A stretch of 64,000 nt of DNA from positions 4,774,001 through 4,838,000 of the forward strand of contig NZ_CP077062.1 in assembly GCF_019039255.1 (NCBI RefSeq), read 5' to 3'. Origin of the DNA: Nocardioides panacis (GTDB taxonomy: Bacteria > Actinomycetota > Actinomycetes > Propionibacteriales > Nocardioidaceae). The stretch's first letter is position 1. Every line of letters begins with the position of its first letter. A program made the translations under genes and the position numbers. A model generated the notes under the pieces. That model searched no databases, was not told the origin of the DNA, and was given only the letters and a program-made list of their open reading frames with translations. Positions 25,886 to 29,067 of this stretch are shown piece after piece.

Positions 25886-26122
25886 ATGAGCACCAGCCCG
25901 CAGGAACCCCTCAAGGACGAGGACATCGAGACCACCGGCTCCTCGCACGGGCCGGCCGACGCCGCTGACGCCGACGGCGCCGACGGCACGGACGCCGCGA
26001 ACGACGGCGACGCCACGGACACCACCGACGGCGACTCGACCGACGGCGCGGACGCCGACGGCACCGACGGCGCGGACGCCGACGGCACGGACGGCTCGGA
26101 CGCCGACGGCACCGACGCCTGA
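25886..26122 (+). CDS. Small Asp/Gly/Thr/Ala repeat protein, candidate modified peptide precursor
   Basis: A 78-residue, very acidic protein with no hydrophobic segment and no Cys. Residues 1-22 (MSTSPQEPLKDEDIETTGSS) look like a non-repetitive leader. The remainder is built almost only from D, G, A and T, with DADGTDG/DADGADG-type units recurring to the C-terminus. AAGGGAGC lies 6 nt upstream of ATG 25886. The cupin oxygenase gene starts 3 bp after its stop and the sucrase/ferredoxin-like gene overlaps that one. A leader-plus-repeat precursor whose side chains are hydroxylated by the oxygenase, or a cation-binding protein, are both possible. No known family is recognised. Confidence 0.65.
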   Translation: MSTSPQEPLKDEDIETTGSSHGPADAADADGADGTDAANDGDATDTTDGDSTDGADADGTDGADADGTDGSDADGTDA

Positions 26123-26125
26123 CTC

Positions 26126-27253
26126 GTGTCCGCTCTCGACCTGCTCAGCGGTGACGCCCAGACCTTCCTCGCGAAGATCTGGGCGTCCCGCGTGCACGTG
26201 CACCGCACCGACCCGGCCGGGCTCGTCGACCTGCTGTCCTTCGACGACGTCGACCACCTGCTGACCGGCACGGCCATCCGCACGCCCGCCGTACGCATCG
26301 CGCAGGACGGCGCCGTGCTCCCCGCGTCGGCGTACACCCGGCACGCGACCCTCGCCGGGCAGACGATGACCGGGCTGCTCGACCCCGCGAAGGTCTTCGA
26401 CCTCTTCGACGACGGCGCGACCGTCGTGCTGCAGGGGCTGCACCGCTACTGGGAGCCACTCGGTGCCCTGGTCGCCGAGCTGGAGCTCGCGCTCGGCCAC
26501 CCCTGCCAGGCCAACGCCTACCTCACGCCGCCCGGCTCGCAGGGCTTCGCGGTGCACAGCGACTCCCACGACGTCTTCGTGTTCCAGACCCACGGCAGCA
26601 AGGTCTGGGAGGTGCACGAGCCCTCCGTCACGCAGGAGCCGCAGACCGTCGTGCTCGAGCCCGGCGTGAGCATGTACCTCCCCACCGGCACCCCGCACGC
26701 CGCCCGCGCCCAGGACACGGTCTCCCTGCACGTCACGATCGGGATCAACCAGGTCACCTGGAAGCAGGTCCTGGACCGGGCGCTGGCCGCGGCCCTCGAC
26801 GAGGCCGGCGCCCAGCACCTGCCGGCCGGCTACCTCGACGAGCCCGGCCTGCTCGCAGACGGCCTGGCCGAGCGGCTGGAGACCCTCGCCGCCACCGTGC
26901 GCGGCCTGGACCCGGCCACGGTCGCGGACGCCGAGGTGCACCGGTTCCTCACCGGCCGCACGCTCTGGCAGCGCGGCGGGCTGCGCGACCGGATCGCGGC
27001 CCGCGACCTGTCCGACACCGCCCTGCTGCGCCGGCGCCCCGGCCACCCGTGCGTGCTGCGTCCCGCCGGCGACCGGGTCCGGCTGCTCCTCGGTGACCGC
27101 GAGCTCGTGCTGCCCGGCCACCTCGCACCGGTGCTCACCGTGGTCCGGGACGCCGGGCGGCTGCGCCCGGCCGACCTGGACCTCGACGAGCAGAGCCGGC
27201 TGGTGCTCTGCCGCCGGTTGGTCCGCGAGGGGCTCCTCGAAGTCGTCGGCTGA
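26126..27253 (+). CDS. JmjC-like cupin oxygenase (RoxA/NO66-like, Cupin_4)
   Basis: A 375-residue protein of the ribosomal-oxygenase-like cupin family, which hydroxylates protein side chains with Fe(II) and 2-oxoglutarate. The iron ligands are visible as His144-x-Asp146 (FAVHSDSHDVFVFQTHG) and His191 (PTGTPHAARAQ). A C-terminal winged-helix-like region of about 150 residues matches the family layout. Start GTG 26126 lies 3 bp after the acidic repeat gene, and the stop overlaps the next start by one base (TGATG). Close coupling suggests that the repeat protein is its substrate; this is inference. Confidence 0.82.
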   Translation: MSALDLLSGDAQTFLAKIWASRVHVHRTDPAGLVDLLSFDDVDHLLTGTAIRTPAVRIAQDGAVLPASAYTRHATLAGQTMTGLLDPAKVFDLFDDGATVVLQGLHRYWEPLGALVAELELALGHPCQANAYLTPPGSQGFAVHSDSHDVFVFQTHGSKVWEVHEPSVTQEPQTVVLEPGVSMYLPTGTPHAARAQDTVSLHVTIGINQVTWKQVLDRALAAALDEAGAQHLPAGYLDEPGLLADGLAERLETLAATVRGLDPATVADAEVHRFLTGRTLWQRGGLRDRIAARDLSDTALLRRRPGHPCVLRPAGDRVRLLLGDRELVLPGHLAPVLTVVRDAGRLRPADLDLDEQSRLVLCRRLVREGLLEVVG

Positions 27254-28140
27254 TGGCCTTCCGCTGCGCCGCCGCCAGCCTGGCCCGCGACGAGCCGGCC
27301 GTCGGCACCGCCTCCACGGTGCGCGCGTTCCTGCTCGTCGAGAACGCCGGCCCGTGGGGCACCGAGGCCCTGCGGGACGCCCGGCTGCCCGCCGAGGTCA
27401 AGGACGGCCTGCAGGCCCGCTCGGCGGCCACCGGCGTTCGCGCGCTGCTGGTCCGCCGGCACGGCGGCGCCCCCACCGGTCCGGGGATCCGGGTGTTCGC
27501 GGCCTACGCCGACCCGGCCGCGCCCTGGATGGAGACCGCGACGCTCGCCGCCCCGGAGGTGCTGCTCGACCTCGACCTCGAGGCGCTCGGTCGCGGCCGT
27601 TCGCCGGGGCTGACGCCCACCGACGAGCCGGTGTTCTGCGTGTGCACGCACGGCCGGCACGACGCGTGCTGCGCCGAGCTCGGCCGGCCGACGGTGTCCG
27701 CGCTGGCGGCCCGGCACCCCGAGCAGACCTGGGAGGTCTCGCACATCGGCGGCGACCGGTTCGCCGCCAACCTGCTGGTGCTGCCCGCCGGCCTCTACTA
27801 CGGCCGGGTCGCCCCGGCCGACGCGCCCACGGTGGCGGCGGCGCACCTCAGCGGGCACGTCGACCTCGACCTGCTCCGCGGCCGGTCCGGGTTCCCCTTC
27901 CCCGTGCAGGTCGCCGAGCTCGCCGTGCGTCGCGAGACCGGCGACACCCGGCTGGACGCGGTCCGGCTGGTCGGGCTCCGCACCGTCGGCGACGGCAGCG
28001 AGGTGACCCTCGACGTGGGCGGCGCGACGTACGACGTGCGGGTGCGGCGCACGACGGGGGAGCACGAGCGGCTCACCTGCCGGGCGACGCGGGACAGCCG
28101 GCCGGCGTCGTACGAGGTCGTCGGCCTCGCCCGGCGTTAG
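27253..28140 (+). CDS. Sucrase/ferredoxin-like family protein (Apd1-like, thioredoxin-fold [2Fe-2S])
   Basis: A 295-residue member of the sucrase/ferredoxin-like family (PF06999). The metal-binding motif CVCTHGRHDACC (Cys129, 131, 139, 140) and the later HIGGDRFAANLLVLP are diagnostic. Known relatives such as yeast Apd1 bind a [2Fe-2S] cluster through Cys and His ligands in a thioredoxin-like fold. Its ATG overlaps the cupin stop (TGATG), so it should be translated with the oxygenase. It could serve as an electron donor or iron-sulfur partner for the oxygenase, which is inference. Confidence 0.82.
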   Translation: MAFRCAAASLARDEPAVGTASTVRAFLLVENAGPWGTEALRDARLPAEVKDGLQARSAATGVRALLVRRHGGAPTGPGIRVFAAYADPAAPWMETATLAAPEVLLDLDLEALGRGRSPGLTPTDEPVFCVCTHGRHDACCAELGRPTVSALAARHPEQTWEVSHIGGDRFAANLLVLPAGLYYGRVAPADAPTVAAAHLSGHVDLDLLRGRSGFPFPVQVAELAVRRETGDTRLDAVRLVGLRTVGDGSEVTLDVGGATYDVRVRRTTGEHERLTCRATRDSRPASYEVVGLARR

Positions 28141-28179: not shown

Positions 28180-29067
28180 ATGAGCGCTGCGATCTCGGTC
28201 TCCGGCCTGCGCAAGACCTTCGGGCGGACGGTCGCGCTCGACGGTCTGGACCTCGAGGTGACCACCGGTGAGGTGCACGGCTTCCTCGGCCCGAACGGTG
28301 CCGGGAAGTCCACGACCATCCGGGTGCTGCTCGGGCTGCTCCGGGCCGACGCGGGCGACGTACGGCTGCTGGAGGGGGACCCGTGGCGGGACGCCGCGAC
28401 CCTGCACCGGCGGCTGGCCTACGTGCCCGGCGAGATGAACCTGTGGCCGAACCTCACCGGGGGCGAGGTCATCGACCTGCTCGGCCGGCTGCGCGGCAGC
28501 CACGACCCGCGGCGCCGGGCGGACCTGCTCGAGCGGTTCGACCTCGACCCGACCAAGAAGTCCCGCACCTACTCCAAGGGCAACCGGCAGAAGGTCGGCC
28601 TGGTCGCCGCGCTCGCCGCGGACGTGGAGCTGCTGCTGCTCGACGAGCCGACCTCCGGGCTCGACCCGCTGATGGAGGCGGTGTTCCAGGAGTGCATCCG
28701 CGAGGAGGCCGCCGCCGGGCGGACGGTGCTGCTGTCCAGCCACATCCTGGCCGAGGCCGAGGCGCTGTGCGACCGGGTCAGCATCGTGCGCTCCGGCCGG
28801 ATCGTGCAGCACGGCACGCTCGCCGACCTGCGGCACCTGACCCGGACCACGGTGATCGCCGAGACCCGGCTGCACGCCGACGCCCTGGCCGCCGTACCCG
28901 GGGTGGGGCACGTGGACCGCCTCGACGGCCGGGTCAGCTTCGACGTCGACACCGAGCACCTCGACGAGGCGATGCGCTACCTGTCCTCGCTCGACATCCG
29001 GTCGCTGGTCAGCCACCCCCCGACCCTGGAGGAGCTGTTCCTGCGGCAGTACGGCGAGTCGGTGTGA
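28180..29067 (+). CDS. ABC transporter ATP-binding protein
   Basis: A 295-residue ABC ATPase: Walker [10 protein letters not shown] (near residue 42), signature [16 protein letters not shown], Walker [14 protein letters not shown], switch His in [11 protein letters not shown]. The degenerate signature (SKGNRQK) is typical of ATPases paired with the large polyketide-antibiotic-exporter permeases of Actinobacteria. It starts 39 bp after the sucrase/ferredoxin-like gene and overlaps the permease start. It may be cotranscribed with the cupin cassette. Confidence 0.9.

Follow-up and report, generated by a model that had tools for sequence, protein, structure and literature searches.

We describe here a three-gene cassette found in a stretch of 64,000 nucleotides of the Nocardioides panacis genome (NCBI RefSeq assembly GCF_019039255.1, contig NZ_CP077062.1, positions 4,774,001 to 4,838,000 of the forward strand; the whole stretch is called the window below), which consists of the genes for a 78-residue acidic repeat peptide, a JmjC-type cupin and a sucrase/ferredoxin-like (Suc_Fer) protein. 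The cassette is real and conserved in different classes of the phylum. We assign a probability of about two in three to the reading that it is a system similar to those of ribosomally synthesized and post-translationally modified peptides (RiPPs), in which the cupin putatively hydroxylates the repeats of the peptide. The pairing of a precursor with a dedicated oxygenase, which a sequence-only reading of the window had proposed, is supported by four kinds of evidence, i.e. the co-occurrence of the two genes, a leader shared by the peptides, core types tracking the cupin clades, and the lack of the type-A peptide in genomes without the cupin.

Co-occurrence and distribution of the cassette

The three-gene neighbourhood, which the sequence-only reading had advised looking for in other genomes, was found repeatedly beyond the window. 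After collapsing the loci identical over residues 21–150 of the matched stretch and dropping the hits below 100 bits, we obtained 172 cupin loci (numbered with L below), and the 161 with 230 bits or more were regarded as in-clade, a line set after the scores had been seen. An acidic low-entropy open reading frame (ORF) lies directly upstream of the cupin in 153 of the 155 in-clade loci with readable upstream DNA, and a Suc_Fer gene directly downstream in 144 of the 155 with readable downstream DNA. L128 is scored as lacking Suc_Fer, yet a Suc_Fer gene (313 bits) was found there; a typical peptide in L179 is uncounted because it slightly exceeds the entropy threshold; and L213, a Streptomyces clavuligerus locus with 285 bits, stands outside the 155. 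For the distant cupins (100–230 bits) the counts are 0/11 for Suc_Fer and also 0/11 for the acidic ORF, the latter meaning that the acidic repeat kind is missing and not that small ORFs are absent, because small ORFs of other kinds stand beside some such cupins. In these same loci, an acidic low-entropy ORF stands ahead of 27 of 707 other genes, a background obtained without de-duplication and with gene calls from a simple script that picked shadow ORFs too. A chance low-complexity ORF in GC-rich DNA was rejected on the basis of this background and of the distant cupins.

The same arrangement is visible in smaller sets of loci. In all 30 loci from L002, which is the window's own locus, to L031, the cupin is immediately preceded by an acidic repeat ORF and followed by a Suc_Fer match, the latter being cut by the contig end in L005. 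A second set of 19 loci (L032–L050, 35–45% identity; G123 and some fragments were left out) has another small ORF, typically (EGPADGGAEGTPGVQDGGADGGA)n, in the same place in 19/19, and Suc_Fer in 17/19, the contig ending at the cupin in L038 and L040. L051, the second cupin of one genome with 30% identity, has neither the small acidic ORF nor Suc_Fer.

The cupin was matched in 79 of 149 genomes of the same family, and the phylum scan gave 58 of 396 genomes at E ≤ 1e-20, five of which reach no more than the scores of the distant cupins. A scan of named genomes, covering the best 80 of 588 relatives, found it in Nocardioides, Aeromicrobium, Micropruina, Propioniciclava, Microlunatus, Halosaccharopolyspora, Acidimicrobiia, Nitriliruptoraceae and others. 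When 26 genomes were searched with the consensus of the type-A peptide, a query that could not detect a type-B peptide, it was matched in 9 of the 10 cupin-bearing genomes, each time solely at the cassette, and in 0 of the 16 cupin-less genomes; in the cupin-bearing genome that was missed (G086), the repeat has diverged. Suc_Fer was not found beside several cupins with a retained peptide, among them those of L156, L159 and L168, and for these three the same was seen in the longer stretches L195, L197 and L201, so that the peptide and the cupin look like the minimal unit.

Leader and core repeats of the peptide

The window peptide starts with MSTSPQEPLKDEDIETT, which is followed by units such as DADGTDG. 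The sequence-only reading had suggested aligning the small ORFs for a conserved leader, and such a leader does exist: the consensus across the family is L-x-D-[DE]-[DE]-[IM]-x-T, and this pattern is present near a start in 130 of the 155 upstream-testable in-clade loci. Nineteen of the remaining 25 have clade-B peptides; the leader motif is there in L170 and L179, which failed another filter; it is truly missing in L158 and L186; and L136 and L137, which were counted as leaderless, are both incompletely readable.

A common leader is found in Nocardioides, Micropruina, uncultured Propioniciclava, Acidimicrobiia and Nitriliruptoraceae, and the core differs while the leader recurs across actinobacterial classes. 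At least four core types can be distinguished: type A with DADGTDG and DATDTTDGDAS-like units, type B with EGPADGG(A/S)NPGGHDGGADG(S/T)A and its kin, and the single cases (PTEDDENLDAPGEHSQDTGDE)x2 in L191 and (ADGTDQGVAGGTYGPRDA)n in L202, both preceded by a similar leader. Among the 155 loci, 151 show a 5-mer that is repeated in the peptide, L137 being counted as one of them through an artefact of a masked run. Between 26 equal-length peptide pairs from 17 genomes, which are not independent of one another, the differences number 624 at codon position 3 and 182 and 193 at the other two, with 478 synonymous and 312 non-synonymous codons.

Each of the two main core types goes with a supported clade of its own in the cupin tree, which holds 170 rows, two of the 172 having been left out for short coverage. 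The 29 type-B rows and L158 form one group with a Shimodaira–Hasegawa-like approximate likelihood ratio test (SH-aLRT) value of 99, and 124 rows labelled A, with a few others including L186, form the second with 97; the label A is a loose one given to any Asp-rich non-B core, odd cores such as L171 and L162 included. The outer placement is unsure because of long outgroup branches. These results bear on the explanation that the acidic low-complexity protein is unmodified and merely co-transcribed, the co-occurrence being that of an old fixed operon. An ancient operon could indeed persist, but the peptide gene is kept while the flanking genes are not, and the leader and the reading frame are conserved across classes while the number and type of the repeats change with the cupin clade; we regard this explanation as very improbable.

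The cupin and its predicted action on the peptide

The cupin gives a Pfam match to JmjC_2 (E 2.5e-19), and the next protein one to the Suc_Fer-like family (E 3.6e-18), each being the single match in the whole genome. The iron ligands His144, Asp146 and His191, which the sequence-only reading had described as intact, are invariant, together with Lys159, in the alignments of 43 and of 21 cupins, and all four residues align with those of NO66; Lys159 is presumably the lysine that binds 2-oxoglutarate. For the AlphaFold2 model (predicted local distance difference test score, pLDDT, 93.6), the best Foldseek match is NO66, with E 3e-24, a template modelling (TM) score of 0.67 by query length and a root-mean-square deviation of 6.5, and MINA53 and YcfD come next, these matches covering most of the chain with TM scores of 0.5–0.7 by query length.

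The cupin is thus alike to NO66, MINA53 and YcfD (JmjC_2, PF08007) in the fold over most of the chain, the iron triad and the aligned lysine. These proteins act on ribosomal proteins according to their entry titles, whereas the clade of the cassette travels with a repeat peptide and usually with Suc_Fer. The structural match would suit a hydroxylase of ribosomal or other cellular proteins, for which the acidic peptide would be a regulator or inhibitor and not a substrate; peptides that are acidic and disordered are able to imitate nucleic acid or to obstruct basic clefts. However, the patchy distribution in the family and the phylum is ill-suited to a house-keeping modification of the ribosome, the core repeats change with the cupin clade as substrates do, and the distant cupins include one within a YcaO/TfuA cluster and several beside other small ORFs, and we consider this alternative improbable.

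In the reading of a RiPP-like system, which we prefer, the small ORF would encode a precursor with a short acidic leader followed by a repetitive core, and the leader would dock on the C-terminal winged-helix domain of the cupin, which, as an Fe(II)/2-oxoglutarate enzyme, would then hydroxylate side chains along the repeats. The peptide is likely the substrate of the cupin, and the change that it undergoes is probably hydroxylation. Among the possible targets the beta-carbon of Asp would be the most probable, because Asp is the sole residue common to the core types seen, and we name it as the site tentatively.

The case for docking is evenly balanced in our judgement. According to DSSP on the model, the C-terminal region has the order strand, strand, strand, helix, three-residue helix, helix, which is close to the order of the RiPP recognition element (RRE) in the available part of PMC12710340. 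The last helix carries, in clade A, Arg363 in 119, Arg364 in 121, Arg367 in 116 and Glu368 in 121 of 124 cupins. In clade B, Glu368 is present in 10/10 cupins whose peptide bears the DDD leader and in 0/16 of those whose peptide has lost the leader or has a degraded one, three further rows being gapped there. In our interpretation, the acidic leader would meet the basic helix of the cupin.

Several points weigh against this reading. The odds of docking are lowered because the middle helix of the C-terminal domain has only three residues in the model, and neither a Pfam scan nor a profile search of PDB sequences detected PqqD/RRE in that domain. The concordance between the leader and Glu368 is suggestive only, because it comes close to one event on the tree, and the nineteen clade-B peptides without the leader indicate that it is not essential in that clade. 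The known ribosomal oxygenases act on ribosomal proteins. The sequence-only reading had stated that homologous cupins lacking any small acidic repeat ORF would tell against it. Of the loci that came into question, the L186 cupin (268 bits) has no such peptide, the ORF in L158 and L196 is acidic and not a repeat of the cassette kind, and the L179 ORF, narrowly failing the threshold, is typical. The peptides of L139 and L147 are Asp-rich and lack a repeated 5-mer. Furthermore, among the gene clusters present in at least six of 81 neighbourhoods, a set that was not de-duplicated and in which a crude gene caller recovered the cupin from 70 and Suc_Fer from 51, we recognized neither a protease that recurs nor an exporter with a constant position.

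The Suc_Fer protein

The model of the Suc_Fer protein has a pLDDT of 95.9, and its best structural match is 1f37, a thioredoxin-like [2Fe-2S] ferredoxin of Aquifex (E 1e-3, TM score 0.68 by target length), the structural search giving nothing below E 1e-3. The CxC...CC motif noticed in the sequence-only reading holds in its last three cysteines, because the conserved motif is C131-x8-C140 with C139, C131 and C140 being invariant in 42 Suc_Fer proteins, and it fails in the first, because C129 of the window protein is not conserved among 19. Apd1 and Aim32 have in common with the cassette protein the Suc_Fer-like Pfam family, the thioredoxin-like ferredoxin fold and CX8C, judging from the available part of PMC8482512, but the second His of their HX3H is replaced here by an invariant Asp: the cassette protein has H164-x3-D168, with both residues invariant in 42/42 and 19/19. 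Nine Suc_Fer paralogues near some cassettes carry HxGGH, so that the Asp marks the cassette form of the protein. Such a second, HxGGH-type paralogue is located upstream of the peptide in L061, L101–L103, L105, L107, L108, L110 and L143.

The iron–sulfur partner proposed in the sequence-only reading is accordingly a usual member of the cassette, as counted above, without being universal, and it departs from the ligand motif of Apd1/Aim32. As a guess, Suc_Fer would be a frequent accessory redox protein that keeps the iron reduced or performs a second oxidation.

A sub-case of the preferred reading is that the product is a metallophore or metal buffer, in which beta-hydroxyaspartate repeats would bind Fe3+ or Ca2+ and a Suc_Fer reductase would release or load iron. 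Beta-hydroxyaspartate is a siderophore ligand, the Asp content of the peptide is very high, and both partners are iron proteins by family. However, there are fewer Asp in type B and other cores, which share no metal-loop spacing, and no uptake system or iron regulator was recognized among the genes recurring beside the cassette, as far as the crude gene calls go, so that this sub-case appears unlikely. Ca2+ binding, which the sequence-only reading had suggested, finds no support as a general function, since type B and other cores are without Ca-loop spacing; the DxDxD spacing is missing from the type B core, and Pfam gave no match to a Ca-binding repeat (EF-hand, RTX or TSP3) on the window peptide, the only peptide scanned. 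A metal-binding product is possible.

Comparison with known systems

JmjC enzymes in RiPP-like settings have already been mentioned in print. In the biphenomycin family, the JmjC/cupin proteins PbsQ and BpmG hydroxylate Orn of a ribosomal precursor, and the cupin is one step among a MNIO, an arginase and a B12 radical SAM enzyme, according to the available part of PMC12257519; in contrast, no modifying enzyme other than the cupin recurs in the cassette, apart from Suc_Fer, and the core consists of multiple acidic repeat units. PMC12710340 reports, in its available part, that RRE-like folds are fused to PF08007 JmjC domains in eukaryotes and that homologues with ~30% identity occur in bacteria, in genomic contexts resembling those of RiPPs; no repeat peptide is described in that part, and the words cupin, sucrase and ferredoxin are missing from the main text as available. 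The corallotide graspetide has a repeat-bearing precursor that is modified at five units by the 2-oxoglutarate oxygenase CorC, and Asp beta-hydroxylation in a RiPP is known for SmaO, which is cited with SmaX in the available part of PMC13097080. From the same part, CorC differs in belonging to another enzyme family (PF13640) and acting with a graspetide synthetase first, with no JmjC and no Suc_Fer. The words cupin and JmjC are also missing from the main text of the decRiPPter paper (PMC7794033) as available. Our literature searches, which included the repeat strings and covered the literature without most subscription papers, found nothing plainly on the cassette.

It is doubtful, though worth setting out, whether the cassette represents an undescribed RiPP class spread over the phylum and defined by a JmjC cupin of the ribosomal-oxygenase type with its own leader-binding domain, which would introduce many beta-hydroxyaspartates along tandem acidic repeats to give a polyvalent peptide that binds metals or is surface-active, a Suc_Fer protein with unusual Cys2-His-Asp ligation serving as the redox partner. 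If the cupin does modify the peptide, some actinobacterial genes annotated as "ribosomal oxygenase" would move from ribosome modification to peptide maturation. The cassette would then also offer an enzyme working along tandem repeats, a natural test of how a leader and the domain binding it change together, and a subfamily of Suc_Fer proteins in which the iron-ligand motif is altered. It comprises only two or three genes and is present in named Nocardioides and Micropruina strains.

Features in the window and neighbouring genes

The gene coordinates, the length of the peptide and the spacing of the genes given in the sequence-only reading were all confirmed (Table 1). A ribosome-binding-like AAGGGAG stretch stands ahead of the peptide ATG; three bases separate the peptide stop from the cupin GTG; the Suc_Fer ATG has one base in common with the cupin stop; and the ATG of an ATP-binding cassette (ABC) ATPase gene at 28180 follows 39 bases past the Suc_Fer end.

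Table 1. Positions of the cassette features in the window
Feature	Position	Strand	Basis
Precursor-like peptide gene, 78 residues, leader and acidic repeats	25886..26122	+	ATG 25886, TGA 26122
Leader motif LKDEDIET	25910..25933	+	Family pattern near start in 130/155 upstream-testable loci
Type A core, ADGTDG / DATDTTDGDS-like units	25952..26119	+	Sequence
JmjC_2 cupin, 375 residues, ribosomal-oxygenase fold, putative Fe(II)/2-oxoglutarate peptide hydroxylase	26126..27253	+	GTG to TGA; Pfam, alignment, model
Fe ligands His144 (26555), Asp146 (26561), His191 (26696), and Lys159 (26600)	26555..26698	+	Invariant in 43 cupins; aligned with NO66
C-terminal winged-helix-like domain, candidate leader-binding	27026..27244	+	DSSP on model, alignment, leader concordance
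Last helix of the cupin C-terminal domain: Arg363, Arg364, Arg367, Glu368	within 27026..27244	+	Alignment
Suc_Fer-like protein, 295 residues, thioredoxin-like [2Fe-2S]-type domain	27253..28140	+	Pfam, alignments, model
Suc_Fer residues Cys131 (27643), Cys140 (27670), His164 (27742), Asp168 (27754; second-His position)	within 27253..28140	+	

The 78-residue peptide has no match in Pfam at E ≤ 0.01 or in NCBIfam, PADLOC and PHROG at E ≤ 0.1. A defence system was rejected because PADLOC gave no match for any of the three cassette proteins, and a phage origin because a search of the phage collection for the cupin gave nothing at E ≤ 1e-5; the JmjC part of the cupin does match PHROG families whose function is unknown.

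The exporter, which the sequence-only reading had counted as a possible part of the system, was rejected because, among 100 searched loci, the ABC permease was matched in just two, the window's own region (L052) and a near relative (L055), with the same outcome at E ≤ 1e-5; matches to the ABC ATPase in six other loci are 35–38% identical and scattered in position. The genes that flank the cassette in the window part from it beyond close kin, and in the close relative L056 a MarR gene directly follows Suc_Fer. In the 81 neighbourhoods, an MFS-like transporter cluster (6/81) and an amidohydrolase-like one (12/81) occur at scattered positions. A large ATPase regulator, which we take from its appearance to be of the LuxR/LAL type and which could regulate the cassette, is found near it in 19/81: upstream in fourteen (L083, L089, L092–L094, L098, L099, L101–L103, L105, L107, L108 and L110), downstream in three (L059, L067 and L077, of which L059 and L077 are from one genome), and partial and further upstream in two (L075 and L087).

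Other small ORFs near distant cupins

Three distant JmjC cupins of Streptomyces (L192, L193 and L215) have directly upstream a small ORF with the C-terminal GTGRSDGND or GGRSDGND, which looks like a separate precursor family; in L215 the small ORF lies at 2798–2944, and an aldo/keto reductase gene follows. On an S. clavuligerus plasmid (L213:3769–3915), a 48-residue peptide with LEPDEIEV and then an Asp-Pro-rich non-repeat tail is encoded upstream of the cupin; genes for an S9 peptidase and an ABC transporter are close by, and there is no Suc_Fer match within 9 kb. A 41-residue ORF (MSFDDKLRATEAELL...MVIENINEA; L183:11506–11631, minus strand), which is possibly another precursor, lies upstream of a divergent cupin; this locus contains more than one stretch matching the cupin, several in all. 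The small ORFs beside distant cupins fit a broader habit of such cupins acting on small peptides.

On another Streptomyces plasmid, a JmjC cupin (L214:2938–4122) stands beside YcaO, TfuA, methyltransferase and carbamoyltransferase genes. Escherichia accounts for 25 of the 117 plasmid records matching the cupin, and on a mobilizable Escherichia coli plasmid of 7.9 kb the cupin gene (L216:2708–3601) comes right after an ABC transporter gene.

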